Shown one piece after another: positions 1,512-19,421 of a stretch of 22,350 nt of DNA. The stretch comes from a virus. How positions within the stretch are numbered: position 1 is the stretch's first letter; every line of letters starts with the position of its first letter. The stretch is from the IMG/VR virus record IMGVR_UViG_3300007345_004483, positions 1 through 22,350 of that record; one strand, written 5' to 3'. The notes beneath the pieces are model-generated. The model was not told the DNA's origin, did no database searches, and worked only from the letters and a program-made list of their open reading frames with translations. A program made the position numbers and the translations under genes.

Positions 1512-2558
1512 TTAACCTATTACGTTATCAATTGCACAGTGATATTGTTGAGGTCCGAAATCGAACGCCATTTCCATATATACTGCTTTAGCAATTCTTG
1601 CTTGATCGTTTTGATCTAAGTCTCTAACAAACATAGTTCCATAACCTGGAATGTTAAGGAATACTGGTTTGACGAAACTAAGGTCAACGATAAATGCTTG
1701 CTTAGAACTTGTTATAGTACCTGCAGGCAAGACATCGGATAATGCTAATCCGAGTGAACCGAATGGTGTGACAATTGTATCAATGTCAACACCTCCGACA
1801 TTTCTGTCTCTTGGTATAATGCCATAGTTCACAGTTCCAACTGTAGCTTTAACTAATTCTTTATTAAGATCCAACAACATTGTTGGGGAAACAAAGAGTA
1901 CTGGTTGTCTCATTGGCGCACCTGCGTCATAAAGAGTTTTCATTGCTGAAGCAATGATGTCCCAGTTTAGTTTTTGTGCTGCAGGTGTTCCTGCGCCGTC
2001 ATCGTTATTGACGGAGTTGCCGCCTGATAAGTCTTGGTGTGCTTTAAGACCTCTCATCTGACGGTTACCTGAAGCACCGTCATTATAAGTTGCGTTAAAT
2101 GCTGCCCACTCTACTTTCTTTGCGACTTGTTCTAATACTAATTCCATCTGATAAGCTAACTCATCATTGATTGGATTTGTTCCTGCTAGTGCGAGTGCAG
2201 GATCAGAGTTCTTGTAGTTTCCTGAAAGATCAAACGGTACGATTTCGCCTGAAGCTGCTTGTGCAGTATAAGATATCTGCGCTGCTTCATGGAAAATCTG
2301 TAGTACACCCTGTTGTGACGCTCTGCTTCTACCTGAATAGTTTGGGGATCCACCCTCATCATCAGGAGTAACAGCTGTAATCACTGCATTGTCTTGTGTT
2401 TGGAATTGGAAGAATGTTGAATTAATCGCATTCCCACCATTCAAACCACCTGCTGCTGCAAGTAAAGGTGTTCTATGAGGTGTGATCTTAAACAGTTCAC
2501 CAGTAAAGTTATTAACGTCACTAGCTACTATTGGATTTGCACCTGATATTGCTGCCAT
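1512..2558 (-). CDS. Major capsid protein, HK97 fold (SU10-like / DUF5309 type)
   Basis: A 348-aa protein that fits a shell-forming capsid subunit in size, composition and position. An N-terminal arm (1-60) is followed by residues 84-108 (VLQIFHEAAQISYTAQAASG), then a long helix at about 131-158 (ELAYQMELVLEQVAKKVEWA). A Gly/Asn-rich turn with RQMRGLKAH follows at 166-174, and the C-terminal domain contains VLFVSPTMLLDL (220-231). This order, a strand with 'TAQA', a helix rich in E and K, then 'R..(R/A)GL', matches what I know of the SU10-type family. There is no N-terminal protease domain, so any scaffold is separate, as the upstream gene suggests. The ribosome site is weak (AAAGG, about 11 bases upstream). 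A strong hairpin follows the stop. Confidence 0.87.
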   Translation of the reverse strand: MAAISGANPIVASDVNNFTGELFKITPHRTPLLAAAGGLNGGNAINSTFFQFQTQDNAVITAVTPDDEGGSPNYSGRSRASQQGVLQIFHEAAQISYTAQAASGEIVPFDLSGNYKNSDPALALAGTNPINDELAYQMELVLEQVAKKVEWAAFNATYNDGASGNRQMRGLKAHQDLSGGNSVNNDDGAGTPAAQKLNWDIIASAMKTLYDAGAPMRQPVLFVSPTMLLDLNKELVKATVGTVNYGIIPRDRNVGGVDIDTIVTPFGSLGLALSDVLPAGTITSSKQAFIVDLSFVKPVFLNIPGYGTMFVRDLDQNDQARIAKAVYMEMAFDFGPQQYHCAIDNVIG

Positions 2559-2586: not shown

Positions 2587-3036
2587 TTATTGTTTTTTTG
2601 CTTCTTCTTGTAAAGCTATTTTTGCTCTAAGACTATCTCTTACAGATGTGTCTCCACTTGCAATTATGTCTTGCATTTTTTGTGTCCAGTCGGCAGGTGT
2701 TTGTGCAGTAGAATTTTGTTGTATAGTCTGTAACCTATCGTCACTATCAGCGATCTTCGCAGCAGCTACTTCGTTGTTCTGCTGTACATTAGTATCGATG
2801 TTATAGTTTTCTTTAAGCCATTGTCCTAGTTCACCAGTGTTTGGTTTTCCGTCATAAAGATCGAAAGCCATTTTACCAGTTCCTGATTCAGGATCTAATC
2901 CAACATCTTTAAAAAGCGAAGTCTTAACTACACTCTTTAATTCTTTATTCTCTTGTTCAACTGATTTAAGTTTTTCTCTTAAACCTTTTATGCCGTCATT
3001 GTTTTCCATGCCGTCCATTGTTTGCTCGTCTGTCAT
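2587..3036 (-). CDS. Probable capsid scaffolding protein
   Basis: A 149-aa, acidic, highly charged protein directly before the major capsid gene, the usual place for a scaffold. Residues 16-38 form a short coiled coil (GLREKLKSVEQENKELKSVV). Then comes a segment FKDVGLDPESGTGKMAFDLYDG, after which the chain is polar and helical with a lysine-rich end (ALQEEAKKQ). The 'G(I/L)D.ES..GK....YDG' segment after a coiled coil is one I associate with scaffold-like proteins of actinobacterial phages. ATG at 3034-3036 has a GGAG ribosome site at suitable spacing. Scaffolds normally direct procapsid assembly and leave the shell before DNA packaging. No protease is visible in the window, so how it would be removed is unknown. 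Confidence 0.75.
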   Translation of the reverse strand: MTDEQTMDGMENNDGIKGLREKLKSVEQENKELKSVVKTSLFKDVGLDPESGTGKMAFDLYDGKPNTGELGQWLKENYNIDTNVQQNNEVAAAKIADSDDRLQTIQQNSTAQTPADWTQKMQDIIASGDTSVRDSLRAKIALQEEAKKQ

Positions 3037-3217
3037 TGATATTCTCCATTTCTCACACGATTACACTATTCTCCAATAAGGTGTGGTACATATTGGGAGT
3101 GGTTACAAAATTTAATTACATGTTGAATTGGCGCTGCAACATACGCATACAACACCTCTACGAATTTATTACGTAGCTAGGACGTAGGAACCCTAAGCTA
3201 GAGTGTCGATCTATTAT
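3037..3217 (-). promoter_or_regulatory. 181-base intergenic leader with three hairpins before scaffold and capsid genes
   Basis: This is the only sizeable gap in the window. It holds three inverted repeats. Arms 3174-3181/3192-3200 pair as TAGCTAGG with CCTAAGCTA. Arms 3121-3125/3137-3141 pair as TGTTG with CAACA. Arms 3071-3078/3091-3099 pair as CTCCAATA with TATTGGGAG. The last ends 35 bases before the scaffold start codon. I see no convincing sigma70 promoter pair here. The gap may carry a phage-specific promoter, a structured 5' leader, or a processing site that separates the capsid genes from the block upstream. A ten-codon reading frame (ATG at about 3145) has a ribosome-site-like AGAGGTG but is too short to call. 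Confidence 0.45.
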
Positions 3218-3391
3218 TTACTTGGCGGATACTGACCACGCCAATACAATTATTATAACACATAAAAACACGGTAATTAGTTTTTTTCCTTGTTCTGTCA
3301 ATATTATTTTGTAAGCGTCATTCCACCAGGTCCATGCCTTATCAGACTTGTAATGCCCTTTTTTATTTCTAGCTCTTACCCATTTAAACAT
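3218..3391 (-). CDS. 57-aa single-span membrane protein (new small gene)
   Basis: The ATG at 3389-3391 overlaps the TAA stop of the 439-aa gene (TAATG), and the frame runs 57 codons to TAA at 3218-3220. The protein starts MFKWVRARNKKGHYKSDKAW, a strongly basic, tryptophan-rich N-terminus. One hydrophobic span follows near the C-terminus (about residues 38-56, LITVFLCVIIIVLAWSVSA). Positive charges before the span predict N-in topology. No Shine-Dalgarno sequence is close to the ATG, so translational coupling to the upstream gene is likely. Codon use resembles its neighbours. Possible roles are holin-like lysis protein, an inner-membrane component of the DNA-ejection apparatus, or another small membrane protein. 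The sequence does not decide between these. Confidence 0.75.
   Translation of the reverse strand: MFKWVRARNKKGHYKSDKAWTWWNDAYKIILTEQGKKLITVFLCVIIIVLAWSVSAK
3252..3260 (-). promoter_or_regulatory. Possible extended -10 promoter element ahead of scaffold and capsid genes
   Basis: On the minus strand the sequence reads TGTTATAAT, a full match to an extended -10 box (TGnTATAAT). No good -35 hexamer lies at 16-18 bases; a TTGACA at 3296-3301 is too far away. The site is inside the 57-aa gene, over codons for its membrane span, so the match may simply reflect Ile/Val codons. If active it would transcribe the leader, scaffold and capsid genes. Confidence 0.22.
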
Positions 3392-4710
3392 TATTGCTCG
3401 ACTAATCCTGTCACACCTGCTTGTGTAGCAGCTGCGCCTTCAGCTCTTGTAAAGACTGACGCTTGTTCTGCTTCTAGTCTCTCTTCTAGTTGTGCTGCTG
3501 TACCTTCACCAAAGACTTCTGATTCAATAAATTCTGATAGACCAAAAATGTCTTCTCTACCTGTAAATCTTTTAGCAAGTCGTTGTAATCTAGGTAACCT
3601 AGCTTCTGCTCTTTGTGCTATCTGTTGCGCACCTGTACCGCTAAGTCCTGCACTAACTAAACGTTGTGCTTGATCTGCTGATATAGTTAAATCTTCTTCT
3701 TTAAATGCACCACCTATTTGTGATACTTTGACTCTTTGTTCTATTATGTCAGATGATATGTCTTCACTTATAAAAGAAGCGAATATAGCTTCATCAGTTA
3801 GATCATCTGTTGTAGGAAATACACCAGGATAGTTTTGTACGTAGTATTGTTTAACAGCGTCAAACTGTGTAAACAAGGATGTATATGCAGTTTCTAACCT
3901 ATTAGCAAACGTAGTAGGTGCTACGTCATTTTGAAACAATTCTGTCATTTGATTCTCAAAGTAATCAGGGTTCAAATTGTAATCTTCTAAGTATGTTCTG
4001 TAATCCTCTTTAATTTTTATGTAATCTAATTCAGGTGTATCACTCTCTATTCTAAGTGTTGTACCATCTTCTCTAAAGATTCCAGGAAACCTATCTTTGT
4101 ATGCTTGTGTAGTACGCATACCTCTTAGTGCTTCATCTGCGTCACCACCATTAACATTGTATTCATCTATAAATAAATCTAATAACTCTTGACCTAGAAA
4201 ACCATAGTTAGCTTGTGCAAATTCTTTTACATTAAATTTTTCTACAGGATCTCCTGGTACTGGTGCTACTTCACCACCACCGCTTCCTCCTCCACCTGTT
4301 GGTCCAAGATCTTTTAAAAATGTTCTACTAACTACATTACCATTAGCGTCCCTAGTAATAGAGTAAACAAGTAACCTTCCATTTTCTACAACAGTTTCAT
4401 CACTTGTAACATTATTACTTGTAACTCCACTGCCTGTGTCACCTTCGCCTGTGTCTCCACCACCTGTATTATCTATAGGAGGTTCTTCTACTGGTGGTTC
4501 TTCTACTGGTGGTGGTACTACTGCTGCAGCTGCTGCTTGTTCAGCTACGTATCGATCTGCAATAGTTTCTACTTCTACTTCTGATGGTCTATCATTAGCC
4601 ATTGTTGCAGGTCCTGCTGCAACAGCTACTGGACCAGTTTGTCTTGCAGCTGCAATTGCGTCTCTATCTTCTTGTGGTAAAAAATCTACTAACCTAGCAA
4701 GTATACTCAT
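3391..4710 (-). CDS. Helical virion-associated protein with Pro/Glu and Gly-rich linker (439 aa)
   Basis: The ATG at 4708-4710 overlaps the upstream stop in an ATGA junction, with AGGAGG upstream. Residues 1-62 are helical and alanine-rich. Residues 63-155 are a flexible linker: a PPPVEEPPVEEPP repeat, then Gly/Thr/Asp-rich stretches around a short folded patch (RLLVYSITRDANGNVVSRTF) ending in a glycine run. Residues 156-439 are helical, with TTQAYKDRFPGIF at 200-212 and an Arg/Glu-rich coil at 360-425. I recognise no enzyme motif and no membrane span. Such a long soluble helical protein with a disordered linker, located between portal and scaffold, fits an internal virion protein. Function is inferred from context only. 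Confidence 0.6.
   Translation of the reverse strand: MSILARLVDFLPQEDRDAIAAARQTGPVAVAAGPATMANDRPSEVEVETIADRYVAEQAAAAAVVPPPVEEPPVEEPPIDNTGGGDTGEGDTGSGVTSNNVTSDETVVENGRLLVYSITRDANGNVVSRTFLKDLGPTGGGGSGGGEVAPVPGDPVEKFNVKEFAQANYGFLGQELLDLFIDEYNVNGGDADEALRGMRTTQAYKDRFPGIFREDGTTLRIESDTPELDYIKIKEDYRTYLEDYNLNPDYFENQMTELFQNDVAPTTFANRLETAYTSLFTQFDAVKQYYVQNYPGVFPTTDDLTDEAIFASFISEDISSDIIEQRVKVSQIGGAFKEEDLTISADQAQRLVSAGLSGTGAQQIAQRAEARLPRLQRLAKRFTGREDIFGLSEFIESEVFGEGTAAQLEERLEAEQASVFTRAEGAAATQAGVTGLVEQ
4481..4510. repeat. Two exact tandem copies of a 15-base unit
   Basis: GGTTCTTCTACTGGT occurs twice in a row at 4481-4495 and 4496-4510. It lies in frame inside the 439-aa gene and produces the repeated Pro-Val-Glu-Glu-Pro units of the linker. 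The exactness suggests recent duplication or slippage. Confidence 0.9.
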
Positions 4711-5948
4711 CTAAAAGATCCTCCTCCTGTAGCACGCGCACCTGCTTTACCAAAGTTGTTTTCTAAATCAGCAATTACTTTATCTCTATATGCTTGCGTA
4801 CCTAGCTCTGCTGCTGCTGCGAATGCTATATCTTTACGTTCTGCTATATCATTAGTAGCAGCAAACTGTTTCCATTGTGCAGTGGTTTCGTCTGCTCTTT
4901 GTCCTGTTATGCTTATCCATTCATTTCTTAAACTTGGTGCAATTTCTTCATATGCTTTAACGTTAGTACCTTTGTATTGTGTATATGTTGCTTGAAACTG
5001 ATCTTGTAATTTAGGTAAAAAGTCTTGTGTAAAAGCTGTAGGATTATCTGCATAATCTGCAGTTAATTGTTCTAAGTTAAAGTTATCTGCTGTACCAGGA
5101 CCAAGTATTGAGTTAATTGTATTTTCTACTTGTCTTGTAAGTTCTATGGTTTCTAAAGTCTTGCCTTCTAATGCAGCTTTAACTTCAGGATCTAATGTAA
5201 ATCTAATTAATGGATTAGCTAACTTTTGTATTGTATTGTTAACATCGTTATCATCAAAGATACCATACTGTTTTTTTTGTGTAATAGCGTCAATGACTGC
5301 AGGATCTAATGTTGTTAATCCTGCTGACAACATCTTACCTATAATCTCTTCACGTGTTTTTATACCATTTGCACTAAATGTAGCAGGATCTTGGTGTGCT
5401 GCATTCATCTGTATTCTCTCTTGTGCTGTATGTGTCTTCCACCAAGTCGTTTGTGCTAGTTCTGATTCTCTAGCTGTCCTACCTTCTTTAGCTGCTTCTA
5501 ATGCAACGGCAAGATAATCGTATTGTCCTGCTGCATTCTTACTAAATATGTATGGTTTGTATTTAGCTTCTTGCTCTAATGCTTCTATAAAATATTCATA
5601 ACCAACTGCACCTGCTTCCATACCACCATGTATAGCTGCTAGTTGAGTATGATCACCAAAATAAAAACTGTTTGTATAGTCATCAACAGTAATGTTTGAA
5701 CTACCTTCTGTAGAATAGACTTCACCATTCTTTGTTACAACAACATCAGGAGTTACATTACCTGTAGCTGCTATTTCTTTTAAGTCTTTTACTTTGTATC
5801 TAAATGTAAAGTTTTCTAAACCTGGTGATAGATCTGCTGCCTCTTGTGGTAATTTATAAACAAGATAATATATTGACTGACCTGACTCATTTATTTCTTG
5901 CCAAACTTGTGTATCGCTTGGTAACTGTGGTATTAAATTAGCTGCCAT
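4707..5948 (-). CDS. Helical virion-associated protein (413 aa), function unknown
   Basis: I chose ATG at 5946-5948, which has AGGG just upstream, over an in-frame TTG four codons earlier. It overlaps the end of the lysozyme-like gene by 11 bases. The first ~100 residues look beta-rich (QSIYYLVYKL, FTFRYKVKDL, PDVVVTKNGEVYSTEG, ITVDDYTNSFYFGDHTQL); the rest is mainly helical and alanine-rich. There is no signal peptide, membrane span or familiar catalytic motif. The C-terminus is basic and glycine-rich (FGKAGARATGGGSFR) and the stop overlaps the next start as ATGA. Its place between a lysozyme-like and a linker-containing protein suggests part of the same internal-virion or ejection set. Nothing in the sequence shows enzymatic activity. 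Confidence 0.6.
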   Translation of the reverse strand: MAANLIPQLPSDTQVWQEINESGQSIYYLVYKLPQEAADLSPGLENFTFRYKVKDLKEIAATGNVTPDVVVTKNGEVYSTEGSSNITVDDYTNSFYFGDHTQLAAIHGGMEAGAVGYEYFIEALEQEAKYKPYIFSKNAAGQYDYLAVALEAAKEGRTARESELAQTTWWKTHTAQERIQMNAAHQDPATFSANGIKTREEIIGKMLSAGLTTLDPAVIDAITQKKQYGIFDDNDVNNTIQKLANPLIRFTLDPEVKAALEGKTLETIELTRQVENTINSILGPGTADNFNLEQLTADYADNPTAFTQDFLPKLQDQFQATYTQYKGTNVKAYEEIAPSLRNEWISITGQRADETTAQWKQFAATNDIAERKDIAFAAAAELGTQAYRDKVIADLENNFGKAGARATGGGSFR

Positions 5949-6817: not shown

Positions 6818-9800
6818 TTATTTCCCACCTGGATTGTACTTAGGAAAATTATTACTGTCAGCAACATCTAATGGTCTCCCGTATTTATCTTCGAGTTTTG
6901 GCATACCTGCTTCATATTCTGATTCAAGTTGTGAAACAAGTCCTGAAGGTATAGTTTTATTCTTACCATTATATCCTTTTTCTTTTAGTTTACTAGACAC
7001 GTACATATCACGCTTAACGTTATATATCCAATCGTTCATACCGAATCCATCTTTGACCGTATCTAATGCTGATATAGCACCTTCTTTTATAGAAGTAAAC
7101 ATACTTGCTAGTAACGGATTATTTTTTGCTTCTTCAACTAATGGATTAGCAGCTTCTTTATATATATCAAATGTTCCACTAAATAAACCTGCTAAGGTAT
7201 TTGGATCTTCAGGAGATCCATATGTCTTTTCAAAAATTGTGTCAGTTTTGCTTGGATCATAAATGTCTTGTGCAACATCTGCTACTGCACCACCTATAGT
7301 TTCAGTAGCTTTACCTACACCTGTTGTCTTTGACACCAACAAATCTAAAAGAACTGGTGCTAATACTACAGCGTCATACATATCTAACCCATTAGCTAAA
7401 GTTTGTAAGAAACCAGTTCTTGCTGCTACTTGTGCTACATTTTCTGCAGGTACTTGTTCAAACAATAGTTCCGCAACTTGTGTTGCTTTCTTTTTTACCG
7501 CTTCGCTATCAACATCTCCAAATATAGATCCCTGTGCAATTTCTTCTCTAAACTCGTCAAAGTTTTGTAAAAAAGCACCATCAATTGCTGTAGGATTTAT
7601 TTCATTTAAACTGTAAAACCTTTCATCATTAATGTTTAGATCACTATACAATTCTAAATACTGTTGTTTCTTTATATCTGTAAGTTCTTCATTTTGCATA
7701 ATTGTTTCAATAGGTATAAAGTTAGAAATTTGTTTTATACTTCTATCATCAAGATCATTGAGACTTGTTGTACCCATATTTATATCGTCAAGTAAAAGTA
7801 AAGTATCTTCGTCTAATTCAGTTGCTTTAATATCGTAAGTTGTTTTTCTTGGTACTCCTGTTCCAAATTTATCTCCTGGATCTACTATTCCAAACACATC
7901 ATGAAAATTATTTCTTACACGACCACCGCCTGTACCTGCAACTATCTCTATACCGCTTTCTGATAAAGATTTAAGTAATGCAATGTCAGCGTATTTTTGA
8001 GGATTGCCTCCTGGTATTGGAGTGCTTGTTGTTAATCCGTTAACTTCATTTAAATAATTAATTAAATCTTTATCTCCATCTTTAAAATTAAGTGATTCGA
8101 AAACTATGTCTTGTGTCTTTTTCTTTGGACCGTCTGCATTAGGATTAAAATCAGTAAAGTCACCCTTGCCTTTAGCAACGTATCTTTGATTGTGTTTTTG
8201 TCTAACTATATCACCGTAAATATACATGTCTTGTAATATGTCATCAGTTGTAGCAATACCTCTAGTTCCTTTTTGTATATAATCGTAACCAATTTCTATT
8301 TGGAAATCTTTAAAAAATTGTTCTGCTAGTTCAGGTTTGTCAGATAAATATTCATTTAAACTTTGAATAAACAATAATTCTCCTACTGCCTGAAATGATC
8401 CAAGTGTTGCAGGATCTACTGTGTTAGCAAACTTAAACATTTCTTTAAAAGTTATTCTGTCTTGTACAAAAGAATCATTTGCATATTTAGTAAACAATAC
8501 ATGTCCTGGTGTAGTACGTTCCCCATGATACCATTCAGGTGTTACCATTTTAGTTTCAGAATTAGCTATATTAATATCTGTTGTTGCTACATATTCATTA
8601 GCTGTATTTAAAAGATCGGGTGCAATTGCTACGTTTGGTCTTATAGTGCCTGCCATAAGGTTTTGCATGTTACTAAAGGTATATGTTTTTTCGCCTTTAC
8701 CTTGTAATGTGTCTTTTATAATCTCTGACATTCTTGTGTCACTACTCATAAGGTTCTGATAATATTTTCTTATAGTTTCACGTTCAGGTCCCTCCTTAAA
8801 AGCATTCTTTAATTTTTCAGTAACGTTTGTATCAGCACTTGCTGTTTTAATAAAGAATGAATCTCTCGTGCTTTGTTTGTATATTTCGTTTATTAGAAAA
8901 TCTAATGATTCTCCTGTAAGTATATTTTCAGGTTTAGCATTTTTAATAATGTTTTGTAATAAAGTAGGTACGTTAGGATTATTTAACTGTCTTATAATTG
9001 GCATGTCTGTATGCAATATTGAATTAGGTTCTGCATTAAATTTTATTTGCATGATACCTGGATCAACTAACAATGTACTTTCATTAGTTACACTTTTTAA
9101 ATAATTTCCATCTGTAGGATTTATTACTACTTCTAAACCAATCTCACGTAAATCACGATTCATCATATCTATTAAATCTGTATCATCTACATCTAAAATA
9201 TCTTTGTGATTTATTATCTGATATATTGCGTCATATACTTCTTGATTTCTAGCACCAATTGTACCTGGATTATTACCACCTGCTGCATAGGAAGCTGCAA
9301 GAAATGGATTAGATGTTGTATACATATAATTAAGACGCAACTGTTGTGTTCTATATTTAGTTGGATCTAACCAATCAATATTATTTTCGTACGTAATACG
9401 ATTTAAAAATCCTTTCATAGTATTTTCAAATTCCAACATAGGTGCTGTTGTTCCAAAATTAGTAGCAGGTAAATATGTTTGTAGTATGTCTAAAACTTTT
9501 CTACCTTTAGTATTTAGACCATTAGCACCGTGATAAACCATCCCACTTAAATTACCGTCTGCAGTTCTAACTAGCTTCTGTGTATCAAGCATAGCTTGTG
9601 GCATATCATTAGAATTGTTCTTATAGTATTCCCATGCAGGAATATATATTTCTTCAGGAAATGTGTTATCGTAAAATACTTTATTTGTATTTCTAATTGA
9701 CTCCATCGCATTTCCTGCTTTAGGATAATTATTTTTCATAAATTCTACAACGTCATCAGTTGCTGCTTCCAATCCTTCTCTTTCAATCATTGTATTTCTA

Positions 9801-11590
9801 GGATCTAAATATGAATATTTTGCAGCTTCACTATCTAATTTTATAAATAAATATTCACCTTCATCTGAATCTGCAACTATAAGACGATCAAACGCTTCAT
9901 ACATAATTGTTTCAAATTCGGGACTATTAATTATTTTGTCTGCATTTTTTTTCATTTCAGCTACTACTGGACTAATTTGCATGCCTTCGTTAATTTTCTT
10001 TTTTAAAATACTATTATAAGAACGTGATGTAAAATCTTTAATTATCTCCGTCATACGTTTTTTACCGTCATCGTTTAATTGTATTGATTTATGGTAAGAT
10101 TTTGTATATTGAGGATCTCTTGATTGAAGTACATCTCCTTCAATATCTGCATTAGTAAACTCAAAACCTTGAGGTCCCTGTTCTACTGCCGTTCTTAACA
10201 CATCAATAAATATAAAATCAGGTTTCATTTGATCAATAGCAGTAAAACTAACACCATCACCTAGATTTACTTTTCCTACCTGTCTTATACTATCGATCAT
10301 AGCTTTATTTTTACGATCGATCATGTTGTTGCCTTCGATAGGAATTAGAGGTTGACCATTATTTTGTCTTACCTCGTTGCTACCTTTTATTATGTTTACG
10401 TTATGTTTAATACTATTTTCTACTTGTTCTTGTATAGAAAATAAATCATCATAATCATATATAGCTGAACCTTTAAAAATTTTTTCACGTGTCGATCTAT
10501 TTAAATAACCAGACCTTAATGACATTTTAAGTGCGTCGTGAACAAACTCTGTATGTCCAAATGCTAATTCTTTTGTTCCATCAATTACATCATCTAGTTT
10601 TATCCATTGATAAGCAACTGCGTCATCTGCAGCTTTAGGAGACCAAACATCAGTGTCAACTACTGTGCTTCTTCCATCAATAATTTCAATAGATTCTATA
10701 TCTTTAATCATAATTAATGCACCACCAACGTTTACTCCGTTTGCTGCTCTAGCGTCCCAATCATATCTGTTGTATTTTATTGGAAGTATTGATGTCATAT
10801 CTATATATTTAGGATCCAATCCAACTTCTTCGACTGCTTCACGTAATGCTTCAATACCAAATATTCTTGACGCTTCTAACTTTTCATAATCAACTGGTAA
10901 CATTTCACCATCGATATTAAATAATGTCTCATGTAAATTTACAAAGTTAGGATCTACTACTGATTTAATTACTTTCTCATCAGGCAAGTCTGCTTCAACT
11001 ATACCTCCTGGCAAAGCAAACAAATCTCTATGTGGACCACGTTTACGTTTGATAACAAGAAGTTCTACTTCTCCATTTTTTGCTTCTTTAAAAATTACAT
11101 TGTCTGCTGTGTTCTGACGATCTTTAAATTTCTCGTATACAAAATCATTGTTTACTTCTGCTATATCATCAGATAGTCCTTCGTCTAATTGAAAACTTTC
11201 TTTTGCAAATCTTGAACTTTGAGGATCTCCTTCGTAATTATAAAATGCTGAAGCTGTATCATCATCAAGATCAAATCCCATATTTCTCCAAAAGCTAGAA
11301 CTGTATGCTGATTCTAAAGTTTTATCTAATAAAGTAATAGGTACATTTATTTCGTCTGATAATTGTTTCAAAGCGTCAACCATTTTTCTACCAATGCCTT
11401 GACCTTGTGCTTCAGGTTTTAAATAAAATGCTTCAATATATATTTCATTACCATTAATTATATTTCCACTTGTTAAATCAAAATGTAAACCGCTGCCATC
11501 TCCTGCTTCACTAGCAGTATCGTCTAAAAATTCTCCGTACTTCTCTTTGAGATCATCAAGAAGTTGTATAACCTTATCTTCGTTATCCAT
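6818..11590 (-). CDS. Giant multi-enzyme polyvalent-type protein (GNAT, Nudix, ART domains; 1590 aa)
   Basis: The ATG at 11588-11590 overlaps the upstream TAA (TAATG), with a weak GGAAG ribosome site. Residues 1-120 look like a GNAT acetyltransferase with the acetyl-CoA loop QGQGIG (62-67). Residues 163-356 look like a Nudix hydrolase (ALPGGIVE at 192-199, REAVEEVGL at 250-258, ELAFGHTEF at 341-349). Residues 666-810 resemble the ADP-ribosyltransferase domain of phage polyvalent proteins: lead-in DTQKLVRTADGNLSGMVYHG, then YTTSNPFLAASYA (757-769), then EVYDAIYQI. A second WYHGE motif occurs at 1020-1024. Residues 860-1400 are otherwise unassigned; 1404-1442 is a hydrophobic patch (VVLAPVLLDLL) followed by an amphipathic stretch. 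With no signal peptide and a position among virion genes, injection into the host is plausible. Domain calls are by pattern. Confidence 0.8.
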   Translation of the reverse strand: MDNEDKVIQLLDDLKEKYGEFLDDTASEAGDGSGLHFDLTSGNIINGNEIYIEAFYLKPEAQGQGIGRKMVDALKQLSDEINVPITLLDKTLESAYSSSFWRNMGFDLDDDTASAFYNYEGDPQSSRFAKESFQLDEGLSDDIAEVNNDFVYEKFKDRQNTADNVIFKEAKNGEVELLVIKRKRGPHRDLFALPGGIVEADLPDEKVIKSVVDPNFVNLHETLFNIDGEMLPVDYEKLEASRIFGIEALREAVEEVGLDPKYIDMTSILPIKYNRYDWDARAANGVNVGGALIMIKDIESIEIIDGRSTVVDTDVWSPKAADDAVAYQWIKLDDVIDGTKELAFGHTEFVHDALKMSLRSGYLNRSTREKIFKGSAIYDYDDLFSIQEQVENSIKHNVNIIKGSNEVRQNNGQPLIPIEGNNMIDRKNKAMIDSIRQVGKVNLGDGVSFTAIDQMKPDFIFIDVLRTAVEQGPQGFEFTNADIEGDVLQSRDPQYTKSYHKSIQLNDDGKKRMTEIIKDFTSRSYNSILKKKINEGMQISPVVAEMKKNADKIINSPEFETIMYEAFDRLIVADSDEGEYLFIKLDSEAAKYSYLDPRNTMIEREGLEAATDDVVEFMKNNYPKAGNAMESIRNTNKVFYDNTFPEEIYIPAWEYYKNNSNDMPQAMLDTQKLVRTADGNLSGMVYHGANGLNTKGRKVLDILQTYLPATNFGTTAPMLEFENTMKGFLNRITYENNIDWLDPTKYRTQQLRLNYMYTTSNPFLAASYAAGGNNPGTIGARNQEVYDAIYQIINHKDILDVDDTDLIDMMNRDLREIGLEVVINPTDGNYLKSVTNESTLLVDPGIMQIKFNAEPNSILHTDMPIIRQLNNPNVPTLLQNIIKNAKPENILTGESLDFLINEIYKQSTRDSFFIKTASADTNVTEKLKNAFKEGPERETIRKYYQNLMSSDTRMSEIIKDTLQGKGEKTYTFSNMQNLMAGTIRPNVAIAPDLLNTANEYVATTDINIANSETKMVTPEWYHGERTTPGHVLFTKYANDSFVQDRITFKEMFKFANTVDPATLGSFQAVGELLFIQSLNEYLSDKPELAEQFFKDFQIEIGYDYIQKGTRGIATTDDILQDMYIYGDIVRQKHNQRYVAKGKGDFTDFNPNADGPKKKTQDIVFESLNFKDGDKDLINYLNEVNGLTTSTPIPGGNPQKYADIALLKSLSESGIEIVAGTGGGRVRNNFHDVFGIVDPGDKFGTGVPRKTTYDIKATELDEDTLLLLDDINMGTTSLNDLDDRSIKQISNFIPIETIMQNEELTDIKKQQYLELYSDLNINDERFYSLNEINPTAIDGAFLQNFDEFREEIAQGSIFGDVDSEAVKKKATQVAELLFEQVPAENVAQVAARTGFLQTLANGLDMYDAVVLAPVLLDLLVSKTTGVGKATETIGGAVADVAQDIYDPSKTDTIFEKTYGSPEDPNTLAGLFSGTFDIYKEAANPLVEEAKNNPLLASMFTSIKEGAISALDTVKDGFGMNDWIYNVKRDMYVSSKLKEKGYNGKNKTIPSGLVSQLESEYEAGMPKLEDKYGRPLDVADSNNFPKYNPGGK
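9161..9595 (-). other. ADP-ribosyltransferase-like (ART-PolyVal type) domain in the 1590-aa protein
   Basis: Residues 666-810. The lead-in 'D(S/T)(K/Q)(V/L)V...DGN..VYHG' is a recognised hallmark of ART domains at the ends of phage and conjugative-element polyvalent proteins. His687 in YHG would contact NAD. Tyr757 begins the second motif (YTTSNPFLAASYA). The third active-site position may be Glu784 in NQEVYDAIY, but that is uncertain. The approximately 65 residues between the first two motifs are longer than I would expect, an insertion or a divergent family member. Confidence 0.6.
10523..11104 (-). other. Nudix hydrolase domain with split Nudix box in the 1590-aa protein
   Basis: Residues 163-356. 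The strand VELLVIKRKRG, the LPGG turn, and the metal-binding helix REAVEEVGL with Glu251, Glu254 and Glu255 are all present. The first half of the Nudix box (GGIVE) is separated from the helix by about 45 extra residues (203-247). The C-terminal ELAFGHTEFVHDAL resembles the 'LAFDH..I...AL' end of ADP-ribose and NAD-related Nudix proteins. That suggests ADP-ribose or a similar nucleotide as substrate, as inference. Confidence 0.7.
11231..11590 (-). other. GNAT acetyltransferase-like domain in the 1590-aa protein
   Basis: Residues 1-120. Strand EIYIEAFYLKPE leads into QGQGIGRKMVDALKQL, the GNAT motif A (Q-x-x-G-x-G) that binds the acetyl-CoA pyrophosphate. SSFWRNMGFD at 98-107 corresponds to motif B ('FY...GF'). 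The domain is compact, and its substrate cannot be predicted. Confidence 0.72.
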
Positions 11591-13371: not shown

Positions 13372-16300
13372 TAAATATCCTCTGTACCAGGTAGGTTTGG
13401 TAAGTACACACCATATTCATTAAGTGTATCATAGTCATATTGCAAATCCTCTAAGAAATCTGTACGTTCCTGAAATAAAGGTAACAATACACGTTCAGCT
13501 AATATTTGGAAATCAGGGTTTTTATTTATTAACATACCAATAGTATCACGTAATTGTTGACGTTCTTTTAACATACTCCTTGATGTTTTCCAACCTTCTT
13601 TAGATAGACCAACAACTAATGCACGTTTTTCTAATGTCTCTATAAAACCTAATACAACACGTAAGTCTTTACCTACTGGTGTTTGTGATAGTGTTCTACT
13701 CTTTTCCCAATTTTTAAGTTCTTCAAATTGCATATCTAATGTAGAAGTTTGTGGTAATCCAGGTATTGTAGAATCGAATCCTGGAAACTTAGATCTAGCA
13801 ATATCCCTAGACAATGCCATTTCTCTCTCACGCATTTGATTTTGATATGGATCTGTTATGTCATATGTTTGTAAAGTACTGACTCTTTTATCCTCCATAA
13901 AGAACTCGCCTAGTCTTTGATTCCTTTTAGCTAACCACTCTTCAGGTTTAAGAGGTTCTCTTTGTTCATTAGCAATTGTACGTACATATGCTTCATAATC
14001 AAATGGACCACCTCCACCTTGTGGTATTGCATACTGTGCAGTAAAAGTATAATTTTCAAATATTTCAGGGTTTTCTAATTGGAACTTCACACCACGTTCA
14101 TCTACTGGTCTAGGTTCTACTACTACTGTTTTAGGTGTAGCAATGTCTAGTGGGTTAAATCCAAACTCATCGATAAAGAATTTAGTAGCTGAATAGTTAT
14201 CACCAGGTGCATATAAAAACTGTCCTGTTATTTCATCTTTAGGTGGTGTCTGTAACATTTCTCTATATCTATCTGCAAGTATTTGCATAGAGTAAACGTG
14301 TCCTGCGTTCTTATCATTACCTATATCAAATCGAGGGTTAAGACCAACTGGACCAACAAACTGTGAAGCAGCTTTAATTAAGGTTAAGTTCCTAGCAATA
14401 GATCTAGCTTCCTTCATAAGTGCTTCTTGTTGTTGAGAAGTACGATCATCTGAACCATTAGCTTTTAATATTCGATATACATCAATAGTAGTGTTAGAAG
14501 CAATACGTGTTATTTCGTTTTGTCCAACATCTTCGTTATATGCGTACAATGCCTGGTATGTATTACGTAACCATGCAGGTACACCTGCTGCTGATATAAG
14601 ATCTCCTGCTGTTCGTACATCAGGTAAACCATATGGAAACAATATTTTTTTAGCTTCGTCAAAGTTTGGACTAGCGTTAACAAAGAAACTTGCAGGTATA
14701 GCTACTGCAGGTCCGATACCAGGAACAATCTCTAATGCTAAGTTAAGTGATGAAGCATAACCAGGAAACCTAACACCTACTTGTCTATCTTCTCCAAACA
14801 ATGCGTCTGAAGCTAAGTCATCAATCATTGGATAATAGAATACTTCTTCACCAGTTACTTCATCTTGTCCTAAAAATCCTTCACCTTCAACTGGACTAAA
14901 TGGATTATCACCACGTAAAGCATTGACTGTTACTTGTCCTCTACGTGCAATTTCAGGATTTTCTTTTAATAACTTAGCCCATGTTGTCATAATCTCTATG
15001 TATGCTTCGCCGAATGGGAATATGCCACGTAGGTTGTAAGCAACCTTTTTACGTTTAGTTAAGTCATACAATAACTCTTGCACTTCTGTTAATGCACGTG
15101 CTTTTGCTATTCTATCAATTAAGTCAACGTCTCCTGATTTATCTGTAAAACCAAGTAGTTCTGATCTTGTTTCTAAGTTTTTATCAAACAATTCTTTATT
15201 GCTCTCTAGTTTGGATTCTAAATCAAATATGTCTTCTTGTAGATCGTCTACCTTTTTCTTTACATTCATAGGCACAATATCATCTTCATAACTTACACCT
15301 GATCCGTATGTGCCAGTTATGTCAAGCTCTAACTTAGCTAGCTCTTCTGTCTTATCTGTAATTTGTTTATCAAGATCACCTTTACGTTTTAGGTATGCAG
15401 TTTGAAACTTATCAAACTCCTCATCTACATCTTGGTAATCTAGTCCTGCTTTTTTATCACGATCATTAAGTTCTTTTATTTTTCTTTGAAACATATCAAT
15501 GTTTATTTCTGTATCTGCTTTACGTAGCTTTTGTGCAGGCAATCCAATATCTGCACGTATAGAAGACATTAAGTTTTCACCAGGTAAGTTTGCATTTAAA
15601 GCACCTGATACGTTGAACTCTTTACCACCTACAATATAGTTACCACCTTCCATCATTGTGTTACGCATTTTTGCAGACATGTATGGAAGCATATCGTATA
15701 TTGTTCTCCAGTATGCTTGTCTAAAAACTGGTGACCTAGAAGCGTTATCAGTTCTTTGTCCCATCAATGCGTCAAATGCTTTGTTTGTGTAAAACTCCAT
15801 TTTACCTACGTCATCAATGTAATCTGTTTTACCTACGGCAACAACGTTAGGTAAATCATTTATGTATTCATCTGACATTAAAGTTTTCTTAACACTTTGA
15901 TATAAACTTTTATCTCCATTTTGTATGCTATCGAAAAAATCATCTAACGTTTCAGTTGTATATTGTTTACCATCTATTCTGTTTAGTCTGTTACGCACAA
16001 GCATTTCAAATATGTTTGTGTTAGCAGTTTTTTCTACAGATAATGGAAATGGTGTTTTACCAAAATCAAGATCATCTATATTAATTTTATTAGCAAGATC
16101 GTCTAAGACATCTAAGTTTTGATCAAAAGCACCACCTGCTAACTGATTTGCTCTTGCATAAATAGATTCAGTATATGCAAATCTACCACCTGCTGTTGAC
16201 ATTCTAGCTTTGTATGTAGGTCCACCTTGTGAGTATTCTTCTATAATTTCTCTAGCTCTAGCAGAACTACCTTCGACAAACTCTTTCATTCTTTGATCTC

Positions 16301-18755
16301 TTTGTTTTTTAGTTAAAGCACCTCTAAACAAATGATTAAATAATCTATCGTAGTGCAAATGTGCAACTTCTCTTACAATGCCGTCATCAAAATACTTTTG
16401 TAATAACTGTGGTCTTGTCTCTCTATTTGCTAACGCTTCTTCTTTAGTAACAACATCCATTGGATGTACACCAGGTTTCTTTCTTCTCTTACCTGCTCTG
16501 TAGTTACCACCAAATAAATGATCAAAGTTATTAGATCCATATCTACGTGAACTAGCAGATTGCCATTCAATTGCTTCATCTAACGGATTACCTAGTAAAT
16601 CTTTAAACTCTACATTCTTGCTTGTCCAACGTGCAGCTTCTGTAGTGTTAGGTTTTTTAAGAAGACCTAATGACAATACAGATAAAGGTCTGCTAAATAT
16701 ATTGTCATAACCACGTGTATACATACGTACTTGCTCTTCACCGACAACACGTAATAACCAGGCACCACGTAATAATACGAATGGTTTCCAAAAGTCACCG
16801 TAGTAACTGTCTATAATCTTTGCCATAGTTCCTGATTTAATTTTAGAAGGTAGCTTGCTAAACATGTCTATACCTTGTTCAGACGCTTTAGCTCTAATTA
16901 AAGACATAGAGTTCATAGCTTTTGCTAATTGTCCAGGATCAGGTAAAGGTATTGTACGTTCAATAAACTCTGTTAACAAATGCGGATCAGGATTAACAAA
17001 TGCTTTATTGTCAATAATTGTTTGGCTTATCTTTGCACCAGGATTAGCTACGTTATTACCTGTTACAGAGTCTATAAAATATGCACGTAGTTCAGGTAAG
17101 TAATCTTCAAAGATCCTGCTAAATGTATATGCGTCTTCTGCATTTACACCATAGTTATCTACTAAATCATCAGCAGTAAACTGAACCATATCTTTTACAA
17201 CGTTAAACAAACCTGTTTGATCTCCGTCTTCTAAACGTATAGCTCTGTTAAGTATTTGATTCTTCGCAACAGTATCCATTGTTGTTTGATCCATAAAACC
17301 TTTTAAGTTTGTTACAGCGTCATCTAACTGATTGCTATCAACATATCTATAAGGAAACTCCCCTGCATATGTAGATAGTATTCTTGCTGATCTATTAGGA
17401 CTATCCATAAGTTTTGTCTTAATAACTTTTTTAGCACCAAATAATTTACCTGTACCTTCAGGTACTCCGCCTAACAACTCTTCTGTAACACCACCTAAGA
17501 ACCTACCTATTGCACCTACTGTTGGTTTTTGTCCTGTACCCATAGGTCCAAAAGGATCTTCTAAAAATTCTGTAAGTAAGTTTTTAACTGCTGCTTGTTT
17601 ATCTGCACTAGATTTAGTAAAGTCTTGTGATATATCCATAAAAGCAGTAATAGCTTCTCTATCAGTAATACCAGTAAGTTCTATAAACTTGTTAGGATCA
17701 TCTAACTCTGCAAAATAATTAATTAACTTTTTGCCGCCTTCATCTTTAACTAAGTAATTAGATACTGATCGACCTGATATAAACGGTAAACCCCAACTTT
17801 TGTTTACAGCACCAATGTATTCTTTTTGTGCTTTAGTCATCTTATCTACAGGTGTATCATTTAAAATCTTTTCTAAGTAATCAGGTATCTTTAATGATTT
17901 TCTACCTTTAGTAAATGCACCCATACCTAATGTTAAATAGTTTGCAGGATCTAAGAACAATGCTTTACCTGCGTCTAGTACACCTGATACAACATTAAAT
18001 GTTCTTGTATTTGGTTCTGCAACTTGTAGTGCTAAAGATCTGCCTAAAGATATGGGAACTGTACCTTTTTCGTTACTAATAGTAAAATTCTCATTACCTT
18101 CCTGCATTTGTCTATCTATAGAAGTTATTGGTGTACCTAAATAGTTTTGTATTATTTGTTCTGCTCTACCTTGATCAAATCCTGATCGTATCATGTATTG
18201 GTACTCATCATAAAATTTAGACTGTGGATTTTGTGCGTCAAAGGTTTCAGATACAGGTAGGAATCCTTCACCTAAGTTAATCTTTTTGCCTTTATTAATT
18301 TCACTAAATAACTGCTTAACAGTTGATTTACCGCTTTGTCTATATGCGTCAGCAAAAGATAGATTTTCTGCTTTGTCACCAAACGTACTTGCTATAAATG
18401 AATTAATAGGACGATCTACTGTTGTTCTATATAAATCTTCTAGTCCTAAAAATCCTAGACGTACACCTGCTTGTAAAGGATCAAAGACTTTATCTAGTAC
18501 TGTCTTGCTATTAGATTGTGCAATCATTTTAGATATGTCATTTAACACTTGTGCTTCAGGTTTAACTTGCAATGTTGTTAAGGATGTAATTACATCAGGT
18601 GAAAAATTAGGATATGCTTTTGCAATTGCACTAGCACGTAGTGCGTCTTCTTTAGTTATAGAGTTCTTAGCTCTTTTGTATGTAGCTTGTCTTTGCTGCA
18701 GCTCTTTATAAAAGTTAGCTTCCTCTGCAGGATTATCTCTGTGAAATGTAGCCAT
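13371..18755 (-). CDS. Giant internal virion-type protein (1794 aa)
   Basis: Largest gene of the window. Its ATG overlaps the preceding TAA (TAATG); no Shine-Dalgarno sequence is visible, so coupling is likely. The protein is mostly helical. Notable segments are FWKPFVLLRGAWLLRVVGEE at 655-674, which may bind membrane or form a core helix, and a basic stretch at 752-760 (YRAGKRRKK). A coiled coil spans about 1082-1200, a conserved-looking patch FPFGEAYIEIMTTWAKLLKE lies at 1246-1265, and a hydrophobic run at 1340-1360 (ALEIVPGIGPAVAIPASFFV). I have a recollection of similar '..W.RLL.ENP...RR' segments in large internal proteins of podoviruses. There are no T7/N4-type RNA polymerase motifs and no muralytic motif. 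An ejected core protein is the best guess; a tape-measure role is less likely given the uneven composition. Confidence 0.65.
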   Translation of the reverse strand: MATFHRDNPAEEANFYKELQQRQATYKRAKNSITKEDALRASAIAKAYPNFSPDVITSLTTLQVKPEAQVLNDISKMIAQSNSKTVLDKVFDPLQAGVRLGFLGLEDLYRTTVDRPINSFIASTFGDKAENLSFADAYRQSGKSTVKQLFSEINKGKKINLGEGFLPVSETFDAQNPQSKFYDEYQYMIRSGFDQGRAEQIIQNYLGTPITSIDRQMQEGNENFTISNEKGTVPISLGRSLALQVAEPNTRTFNVVSGVLDAGKALFLDPANYLTLGMGAFTKGRKSLKIPDYLEKILNDTPVDKMTKAQKEYIGAVNKSWGLPFISGRSVSNYLVKDEGGKKLINYFAELDDPNKFIELTGITDREAITAFMDISQDFTKSSADKQAAVKNLLTEFLEDPFGPMGTGQKPTVGAIGRFLGGVTEELLGGVPEGTGKLFGAKKVIKTKLMDSPNRSARILSTYAGEFPYRYVDSNQLDDAVTNLKGFMDQTTMDTVAKNQILNRAIRLEDGDQTGLFNVVKDMVQFTADDLVDNYGVNAEDAYTFSRIFEDYLPELRAYFIDSVTGNNVANPGAKISQTIIDNKAFVNPDPHLLTEFIERTIPLPDPGQLAKAMNSMSLIRAKASEQGIDMFSKLPSKIKSGTMAKIIDSYYGDFWKPFVLLRGAWLLRVVGEEQVRMYTRGYDNIFSRPLSVLSLGLLKKPNTTEAARWTSKNVEFKDLLGNPLDEAIEWQSASSRRYGSNNFDHLFGGNYRAGKRRKKPGVHPMDVVTKEEALANRETRPQLLQKYFDDGIVREVAHLHYDRLFNHLFRGALTKKQRDQRMKEFVEGSSARAREIIEEYSQGGPTYKARMSTAGGRFAYTESIYARANQLAGGAFDQNLDVLDDLANKINIDDLDFGKTPFPLSVEKTANTNIFEMLVRNRLNRIDGKQYTTETLDDFFDSIQNGDKSLYQSVKKTLMSDEYINDLPNVVAVGKTDYIDDVGKMEFYTNKAFDALMGQRTDNASRSPVFRQAYWRTIYDMLPYMSAKMRNTMMEGGNYIVGGKEFNVSGALNANLPGENLMSSIRADIGLPAQKLRKADTEINIDMFQRKIKELNDRDKKAGLDYQDVDEEFDKFQTAYLKRKGDLDKQITDKTEELAKLELDITGTYGSGVSYEDDIVPMNVKKKVDDLQEDIFDLESKLESNKELFDKNLETRSELLGFTDKSGDVDLIDRIAKARALTEVQELLYDLTKRKKVAYNLRGIFPFGEAYIEIMTTWAKLLKENPEIARRGQVTVNALRGDNPFSPVEGEGFLGQDEVTGEEVFYYPMIDDLASDALFGEDRQVGVRFPGYASSLNLALEIVPGIGPAVAIPASFFVNASPNFDEAKKILFPYGLPDVRTAGDLISAAGVPAWLRNTYQALYAYNEDVGQNEITRIASNTTIDVYRILKANGSDDRTSQQQEALMKEARSIARNLTLIKAASQFVGPVGLNPRFDIGNDKNAGHVYSMQILADRYREMLQTPPKDEITGQFLYAPGDNYSATKFFIDEFGFNPLDIATPKTVVVEPRPVDERGVKFQLENPEIFENYTFTAQYAIPQGGGGPFDYEAYVRTIANEQREPLKPEEWLAKRNQRLGEFFMEDKRVSTLQTYDITDPYQNQMREREMALSRDIARSKFPGFDSTIPGLPQTSTLDMQFEELKNWEKSRTLSQTPVGKDLRVVLGFIETLEKRALVVGLSKEGWKTSRSMLKERQQLRDTIGMLINKNPDFQILAERVLLPLFQERTDFLEDLQYDYDTLNEYGVYLPNLPGTEDI

Positions 18756-19213
18756 TAGAGATTACGCTGCGTTCTACCTACCTGTCTATCAGAAGCAAAT
18801 TTAAGTAGTCCTAGAAGTTCTGAAGTAGGATTAACTTCTGCCATTGCACGTATAAGCATGACATCATCAGGTTCTAAAAATTGATCTTGTGTTGGTGGAG
18901 ATTGATACTGTCCTAGATTATCTTCTCCAGGTGCAAATACATCTGCTAACCCTGATGGTAATCCACCTAACGGTGCAGGACCTGGTTGTGGTTGTGCAGC
19001 AAAAGTTTCTTGTGGTTGTTCTATATTTCCTTGTCTAACTTGATCAACAAGTGCTGATTCTTCTCCTGCAGACTCATTAACCATGCCACGTACATCATCT
19101 ATTGTTGGTGCAACACCATCTGTCCTACGTGATAATTTACCTGGACCACTTACAGCTGCAGGTCTTTTGACTCCGCCTCTACGTCCACGATTCCTACTAC
19201 TACCAGTTGCCAT
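18755..19213 (-). CDS. Small basic-headed conserved-type phage protein (152 aa)
   Basis: ATG at 19211-19213 has a near-perfect AGGAGG six bases upstream, and the gene overlaps the 73-aa gene by 14 bases. The N-terminus is very basic and glycine-rich (SSRNRGRRGGVKRPAAVSGP), followed by GKLSRRTDG. The middle is Gln/Pro-rich and probably disordered (QETFAAQPQPGPAPLGGLPS). The C-terminus has helices (PDDVMLIRAMAEVNPTSELL) and ends basic. The 'GPGKLSRRTD' segment after a basic leader is one I associate with small proteins near the portal gene of actinobacterial phages. A DNA-contacting or portal-associated role is possible but unproven. Confidence 0.65.
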   Translation of the reverse strand: MATGSSRNRGRRGGVKRPAAVSGPGKLSRRTDGVAPTIDDVRGMVNESAGEESALVDQVRQGNIEQPQETFAAQPQPGPAPLGGLPSGLADVFAPGEDNLGQYQSPPTQDQFLEPDDVMLIRAMAEVNPTSELLGLLKFASDRQVGRTQRNL

Positions 19214-19421
19214 CTAGATCCTCCTGTTTACCAAAAAATATTATTAATCCTTGTGGTATATATTGTACAGTCATTCCTTGTGGCATAGAAGAAATTGTTG
19301 GTTCATCAAATAATTCTTCTTCGTGATCAGATATTTCTATCAATGTTTTTTGCCATACATCAACTAAACAATTGTTGACTATCTCTCCAAATATCATATT
19401 CACTTCTTCGTTAGGCGCCAC
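19200..19421 (-). CDS. Small acidic hypothetical protein (73 aa)
   Basis: The start is GTG at 19419-19421, supported by AGGAGG eight bases upstream, and it overlaps the portal stop by 11 bases. The protein is acidic, with a helical first half (IFGEIVNNCLVDVWQKTLIE), an acidic middle (SDHEEELFDEP) and a short beta-like end (MTVQYIPQGLIIFFGKQEDL). No family recognised. The tight packing on both sides and the strong ribosome site support a real gene, and its position between portal and the 152-aa protein suggests a minor head or packaging function. Confidence 0.7.
   Translation of the reverse strand: MAPNEEVNMIFGEIVNNCLVDVWQKTLIEISDHEEELFDEPTISSMPQGMTVQYIPQGLIIFFGKQEDLDGNW

Follow-up and report, generated by a model that had tools for sequence, protein, structure and literature searches.

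The window analyzed here is the whole of a 22,350-base viral record in IMG/VR (IMGVR_UViG_3300007345_004483; G+C 35.6%). On its minus strand, 354 bases (3037-3390) separate a 439-aa open reading frame from a 149-aa frame in the position of a scaffold gene, which is followed by the gene for the major capsid protein (Table 1). We asked what occupies this gap: an overlooked gene, a regulatory region, or both, and what such a gene might do.

Table 1. Features in and around the gap (positions in the window)
Feature	Position	Strand	Remarks
439-aa ORF	3391..4710	-	Upstream neighbor; phrog_8424, function not assigned in family
ORF57 (57-aa gene)	3218..3391	-	Basic head, residues 1 to ~37, then one predicted transmembrane helix (38-56)
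Extended -10 promoter, TGTTATAAT (putative)	3252..3260	-	Inside ORF57 codons 44-47
Hairpin H1	3222..3244	-	Arms 3244-3239 / 3227-3222, inside last codons of ORF57
PK1	3205..3236	-	H1 loop (3236-3234) pairs with 3207-3205; weakest of the six helices
Hairpin H2	3174..3200	-	Arms 3200-3192 / 3181-3174
PK2	3158..3187	-	H2 loop 3187-3183 (CTACG) pairs with 3162-3158 (CGTAG)
Hairpin H3	3073..3096	-	Arms 3096-3091 / 3078-3073
PK3	3054..3085	-	H3 loop 3085-3081 (CACAC) pairs with 3058-3054 (GTGTG)
149-aa ORF in scaffold position	2587..3036	-	First gene past the leader; phrog_7813, function not assigned in family
Major capsid protein	1512..2558	-	SU10_MCP match

A 57-codon gene that is conserved, accessory and replaceable

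We found that the gap contains a genuine protein-coding gene, ORF57. The original prediction had placed an overlooked 57-codon gene, for a basic Trp-rich head and one transmembrane helix, at a TAATG overlap, and its coordinates and frame proved correct: the ATG of ORF57 and the stop codon of the 439-aa ORF have one base in common. The chance of 56 open codons at the local base composition is low (p about 0.011); conservation is stronger evidence for coding than the length of the frame. A protein scan of viral contigs gave 31 loci, with full-length ORF57 in 28 other contigs (77-100%), as expected if a short frame is conserved at this place in relatives. One further copy (L030) is cut by the contig end, and two more distant proteins (L031 and L032) have only the N-terminal part, or head, in common with ORF57. 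A profile built from 15 members found 39 loci, 37 of them with ORF57; the remaining two (L191 and L192) are holins that carry the head, described below.

The frame is open throughout in 33 ORF57 loci (21 distinct sequences, including the window). We compared all pairs of these 21 sequences by Nei-Gojobori sums, leaving out L030 and a deep clade (L073-L076 and L188) that keeps a 56-60% version of ORF57. In codons 2-30, dS was 0.574 and dN 0.084, a ratio of 0.146 that indicates purifying selection; that is, the head is selected as a protein, the outcome anticipated for a real gene. The window and L003 differ in these codons by 9 synonymous and 0 non-synonymous changes. The ratio was 0.608 in codons 31-40 and 0.444 in codons 41-57 (dS 0.238, dN 0.105). 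The lowered synonymous change in the tail fits DNA that has a second job.

ORF57 is predicted to be a lineage-specific single-pass membrane protein. Residues 38-56 are strongly hydrophobic (Kyte-Doolittle mean of 2.7 over the 19 residues), the net charge N-terminal to this segment is +7, and an AlphaFold2 model has a single helix at 18-56 (mean pLDDT 69.7, 91 in the 41-50 block), with a weak N-terminus. These calculations agree with the proposal of one transmembrane helix after a basic head. There was no Pfam match for ORF57, its best PHROG match was phrog_5083 (E 0.038), and a search of 50,697 phage records gave a single weak match (E 2). The 439-aa protein had zero matches in the same phage search.

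We took a census of the site in 77 loci with a related capsid gene, after dropping three of 80 (L035, L050 and L099) because the site lay outside the locus. ORF57 was intact in 32, had lost its front in 6, and was absent from 39; many of the loci are near-identical contigs, so these counts are not independent. The six front-deleted loci (L045, L048, L052, L053, L059 and L096) keep codons 31-57 and have no start codon. In L059 the flanking genes are 93% (417-aa ORF), 89% (439-aa ORF), 96% (scaffold-position ORF) and 96% (capsid) identical to those of the window. The flanks are also present in the other five, at 72-92% where not shortened by the locus end. The deletion loci have a common junction, and the six deletions are perhaps one event that spread. 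Since the start codon and head were lost in 6 of the 77 loci while the flanking genes remain, ORF57 is dispensable, an accessory gene. A broken frame between intact flanking genes had been named as evidence against the gene. Such a break is found in these six loci, which bears the objection out in part.

Other small genes occupy the site in some relatives. In L060-L062, L064 and L098 it holds a 45-aa Lys-rich ORF (L060:5175-5312), which in L060 and L061, the two whose DNA was read, begins at an overlapping TAATG and has its stop codon within the -10 box. In L063 it holds an 83-aa phrog_7595 ORF (L063:5050-5298). The deletions, the absences and these replacements indicate that the site is a slot for small genes. 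Basic small proteins that resemble phrog_7595 by eye are also encoded a few kb from the holin in three other loci (L118:9712-9981, L120:1472-1735 and L123:657-932).

A candidate promoter and a pseudoknotted leader

The original prediction gave the size of the gap correctly but took it to be otherwise vacant, whereas a putative promoter and a structured leader extend from ~3260 to 3037. Because these are kept in relatives that lack ORF57, the gap would not be unexplained without the gene. The relatives lacking ORF57 retain the DNA of codons ~40-57, and most of them have an extended -10 sequence (TGnTATAAT), exact or as a near variant. In group A loci it is followed by a hairpin (mostly GGCG...CGCC) at the expected transcription start, which in the window is predicted near 3245. 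The canonical -10 is absent in L095, L106 and L107; L106 and L107 retain hairpin H2 and its pairing, and L095 is similar by eye only. A sigma-70 scan that requires a -35 element listed nothing near 3260 on the minus strand. The hairpin contains an in-frame stop (TAG or TAA) in 10 of the 11 aligned rows from other lineages, in 0 of 23 rows with ORF57, and in 0 of 4 deletion rows. The last third of ORF57 thus appears to be overprinted on the scaffold/capsid promoter, which is presumably active, and on the first leader hairpin.

Comparative analysis indicates that the leader is a series of three, or in one clade four, tandem pseudoknots, a structure supported as a whole by covariation. PK3 is directly upstream of the site at which ribosomes are presumed to bind the message for the scaffold-position gene. 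We took one representative of each distinct gap sequence (63 of 107), of which 56 were parsed, and used three alignments: A1 (38 loci), A2 (10 loci, group B) and A6 (5 loci plus L106 and L107). L076, L098, L103 and L095 are in none. The shuffle and strand-exchange controls used below allow for relatedness in part only.

In A1 (38 loci, 35 distinct), the 33 pairs of the structure are formed in 91.2% of cells, compared with 79.3% in shuffled alignments (0/500 as high) and 32-43% when the structures were slid. Both sides change in 21 pairs (13.2 in shuffles; 0/500), and the covariation score is 0.318 (0.115 in shuffles; 0/500). The number of further pair types was no higher than in shuffles, either for A1 (192/500) or for A2 (470/500). 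RNAalifold, unaided, recovered H1, PK2 and H3. When strands were exchanged, pairing fell for H1, H2, PK2, H3 and PK3 (each 0/300 as high); the signal for PK1 was weak (27/300). PK1 columns 29-59 contain UA 16 times, GC 12, AU 5 and CG 2. H2 is paired in 75.4% of A1 cells, with the arms of some rows slipped by one column, and its 21 distinct arm pairs make 18 different helices. PK2 has the variants CTGCG/CGCAG and CAACG/CGTTG elsewhere.

Four pseudoknots fit group B (10 loci, capsid 67-70%), with all 46 pairs formed and double changes in 6 pairs (2.9 in shuffles; 5/500 as high); four of the eight helices in A2 are uninformative because they never vary. In group C (7 loci, capsid 51-52%), H2 is retained although its stems differ (0/500), and PK2 is present but weak (71/500) because it hardly varies. 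By eye, the group C leaders (L100:5320-5505, L105 and L110) seem to end in an extra pseudoknot, in which TAGCG or TAGC in a loop would have its partner, CGCTA or GCTA, upstream of the ribosome-binding site.

We trained a covariance model of H1-H2 (R1) on 19 leaders from group A, and it found the leader in 17 of 20 records, some of which are training members or near-copies, once each at the capsid-leader place. The matches were weak in G012 (E 0.056) and G013 (E 8e-5, with one further match at E 0.12). The three records missed (G014-G016) are all from group C. In five loci, Rfam gave no match to the leader at the gathering score. One Rfam candidate, RF_site3, reached 17.3 bits where the gathering score is 50 and was taken as a chance match. 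STAXI has an Rfam model, and it did not appear in the E<=10 lists for window positions 2950-3450 or L083 positions 5200-5500.

The likeness to known elements is partial. STAXI elements are also described as pseudoknots in tandem, usually three repeats, often with UUCG tetraloops, that lie near ssb, topoisomerase, integrase or antirestriction genes (PMC2864571). Unlike STAXI as described there, the leader precedes scaffold-position and capsid genes rather than DNA-manipulating genes, and has no Rfam match. The T4 gene 32 message likewise has a pseudoknot in its 5' leader, upstream of the start codon; it is described as one pseudoknot, bound by the single-stranded-DNA-binding protein (PMC3014915), whereas here there would be three or four, before a scaffold-position gene and with no known ligand. 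In the literature on phage leader and capsid-message pseudoknots, marine phage structured RNAs and STAXI, considered at the level of titles and abstract openings and outside subscription papers, nothing was recognized as this leader. We infer that the leader regulates scaffold and capsid synthesis.

The head of ORF57 and the holins of its relatives

We found that the head of ORF57 is homologous to part of a holin. Five records lacking ORF57 (of 20 relatives searched) encode ~100-aa proteins with an ORF57-like N-terminus, here called headed. Four of these headed proteins, and a headless protein of G001, match the holin family phrog_443 (E 1.2e-7 to 1.6e-5); against the r1t holin family PF16945 the same proteins gave E values of 0.0007-0.06, below the model cut-off. 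In the headed proteins the phrog_443 match begins past the head, at residue 37 or beyond. A DUF5675-like gene, recognized by eye, is beside or near the headed protein in 4 of the 5 records; the G001 gene, the sole one tested, matched Pfam DUF5675 at E 1e-28. No DUF5675-like gene was present within the 3 kb read around the headed protein of G013. Aligned with hhalign to the five headed holins, ORF57 gave a probability of 98 and E 1.6e-13 over 37 columns, and one headed holin used as query found ORF57 of L076 (E 2.7e-11). By these matches, residues 1 to ~37 of ORF57 and the N-terminal extension of the r1t-like holin in relatives are homologues.

ORF57 itself differs from an r1t-like holin. Such holins have more than one transmembrane helix (two) and are encoded in a lysis cassette. 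ORF57 lacks the holin domain, matching neither PF16945 nor phrog_443, has one predicted helix, and its place, after the 439-aa gene and before the scaffold-position gene, is far from that of the holin. The ORFs listed for the window included no recognized holin; the record is a fragment, and its holin may lie outside the 22 kb.

Where present, the head was found in one place or the other. We examined 85 records (batches of 30, 25 and 30) and counted 36, leaving out those whose capsid slot was not seen, namely G073 (= L099), G049 and G050 (= L191 and L192) and G080-G085, and every record without a found holin. In the last batch of 30, headed and headless holins were distinguished by where the alignment started (1-4 or 33-34) rather than by reading the frame. 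The alignment start of the G017 holin suggests a head, but its frame contains stops and it was counted as headless. In genomes that have ORF57 and a visible holin, the holin was headless in 11 of 11, with every frame read. In those lacking ORF57, it was headed in 14 of 25 and headless in 11: three in which ORF57 is deleted, two that carry the 45-aa ORF, and six others. That is, a headed holin and ORF57 occurred together in 0 of the 36 genomes with both places visible. The split by presence of ORF57 has p 0.0012 with genomes treated as independent, a value that relatedness makes too small; head location is confounded with descent, and several genomes are near-copies. The 11 genomes with neither ORF57 nor a headed holin indicate that the head is not indispensable.

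It seemed possible that the head is a motif widespread in phages and unlinked to holins. We dropped this idea because of the homology to headed holins, but the wider motif is real: roseophages, cyanophages and vibriophages also have short head-like motifs in proteins that are not holins. Small proteins of L112, L114, L115, L116 and L032 (roseophages, S-CBWM1 and vibriophages) have the pattern RAR..GH[FY]..D[DN]P.TP..NEAW, and in the L032-type contig the protein with the motif comes after the gene in capsid position. In Synechococcus phage Syn5, an unannotated frame at the portal/scaffold junction (L113:2971-3190; record 15746-21802) has a head-like motif, SKGHFKADDPTTPVNEAW, in a reading frame other than that of the portal gene's end.

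Possible origin and function of ORF57

The reading we favor, tentatively and at a little short of an even chance, is that ORF57 works with the holin to time lysis and that its gene is overprinted on the promoter and leader of the capsid genes. The 5' end of a holin gene would have moved, or been duplicated, to the site that separates the 439-aa gene from the capsid promoter. There its frame may have continued through the AT-rich promoter and hairpin, which would have supplied a transmembrane anchor, with the head afterwards lost from the holin. The protein, made together with the late structural genes and, judging by its N-side charge, probably oriented N-in/C-out, would act on the headless holin either as an antiholin or as an activator. 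Two RNAs could also behave differently: on a read-through message from upstream, ribosomes translating ORF57 would pass H1 up to the ORF57 stop codon, whereas transcripts from the promoter itself would begin just upstream of H1.

There is a partial precedent in T4, in which the antiholin RI is a separate small partner that controls holin T. The cytoplasmic N-terminus of holin T, short and essential, can decide hole formation (PMC12162936), and a two-protein holin system has been described in mycobacteriophages (PMC13056207). The likeness seen to T4 is in a cytoplasmic N-terminal segment of the holin and a separate small partner rather than in sequence. Here the N-terminal segment would itself be the separate protein: the ORF57 head matches the head of the relatives' holin, and the holin of the same genome lacks it. 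In the holin literature, covered by titles and abstract openings outside subscription papers, nothing like a split between head and holin was found.

Several other explanations have to be weighed against a holin partner. ORF57 might be an accessory membrane protein that has no part in lysis and acts, for example, in superinfection exclusion or as cargo, with a head that phages attach to various proteins. We consider this doubtful but a serious candidate: the exchanges at the slot (six deletions, the 45-aa Lys-rich ORF and the 83-aa phrog_7595 ORF) and the head-like motifs in proteins of other phages are what it would lead one to expect, but in the relatives of these phages the homologues of the head are holins, and a headed holin was never found together with ORF57 in the 36 genomes. 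It is improbable, in our judgment, that ORF57 is the decaying remnant of a duplicated holin, still translated yet of little use and kept open mainly by its overlap with the promoter and hairpin. The loss in six loci (perhaps one spread event) and the tail ratio of 0.44 with reduced dS fit decay; the strong purifying selection on the head, which is outside the promoter, and the version retained in the deep clade do not.

The original prediction suggested a holin-like protein or a membrane part of the ejection channel. The connection to holins stood, through the homology of the head, although in a form other than a holin. A small, basic protein with one transmembrane helix could be a pore-forming holin in its own right, but this is very unlikely, given the r1t-like holin candidate elsewhere in the 11 genomes with ORF57, not beside it, and the lack of a Pfam match or a PHROG match better than E 0.038. 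The ejection channel fared worse. All that speaks for it is the place of ORF57 among structural genes, but ORF57 is deleted or absent in 45 of the 77 loci that keep the capsid gene, and in L059 its start and head are gone between flanks that are 89-96% identical; such a role is unsupported, and we give it scant credence. Least probable of all is that the frame is untranslated and conserved only through promoter and RNA. Conserved non-coding elements do underlie the last third, but codons 2-30 are outside them and have a coding signature, and purifying selection on a head outside the promoter and RNA makes this hardly tenable.

A more ambitious combination of these ideas is unlikely as a whole but would be of wider interest: a split holin, whose cytoplasmic head was detached, re-anchored by overprinting and acts in trans, encoded amid the capsid genes, together with an undescribed family of leaders with three or four pseudoknots that controls capsid production. 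If so, the detached head would tie lysis timing to late gene expression, and the leader could act, for example, by binding the scaffold or capsid protein. A piece of a holin would be located away from its holin, among capsid genes, and a single stretch of DNA would serve as coding sequence, promoter and structured RNA in a readable case. The chain of pseudoknots before the capsid genes, with its covariation support, is a testable candidate in uncultured marine phages. For annotation, a 350-base gap that looks "empty" in a phage late operon may contain a small gene as well as an RNA.

The host is possibly a marine actinobacterium. All matches of the capsid protein to named phages were under 60% (best about 32%), and 23 of the 25 are to phages of hosts that we take to be Actinomycetota. 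The capsid protein had no match in GTDB genomes. Headed holins were found in GTDB at 4 loci on 3 MAG contigs, two contigs from one Actinomycetota MAG and one from a Gammaproteobacteria MAG. One MAG contig, PBPX01000045.1, has a headed holin twice (L299 and L300), ~43.9 kb apart, and looks as if a phage genome of ~43.9 kb had been assembled more than once around. Elsewhere in the window, where long ORFs lie between the portal and capsid genes, a 1590-aa ORF (6818-11590, minus strand) has a match to GNAT acetyltransferase (E 5e-6) and a weak match to NUDIX (E 0.0014) near its N-terminus.
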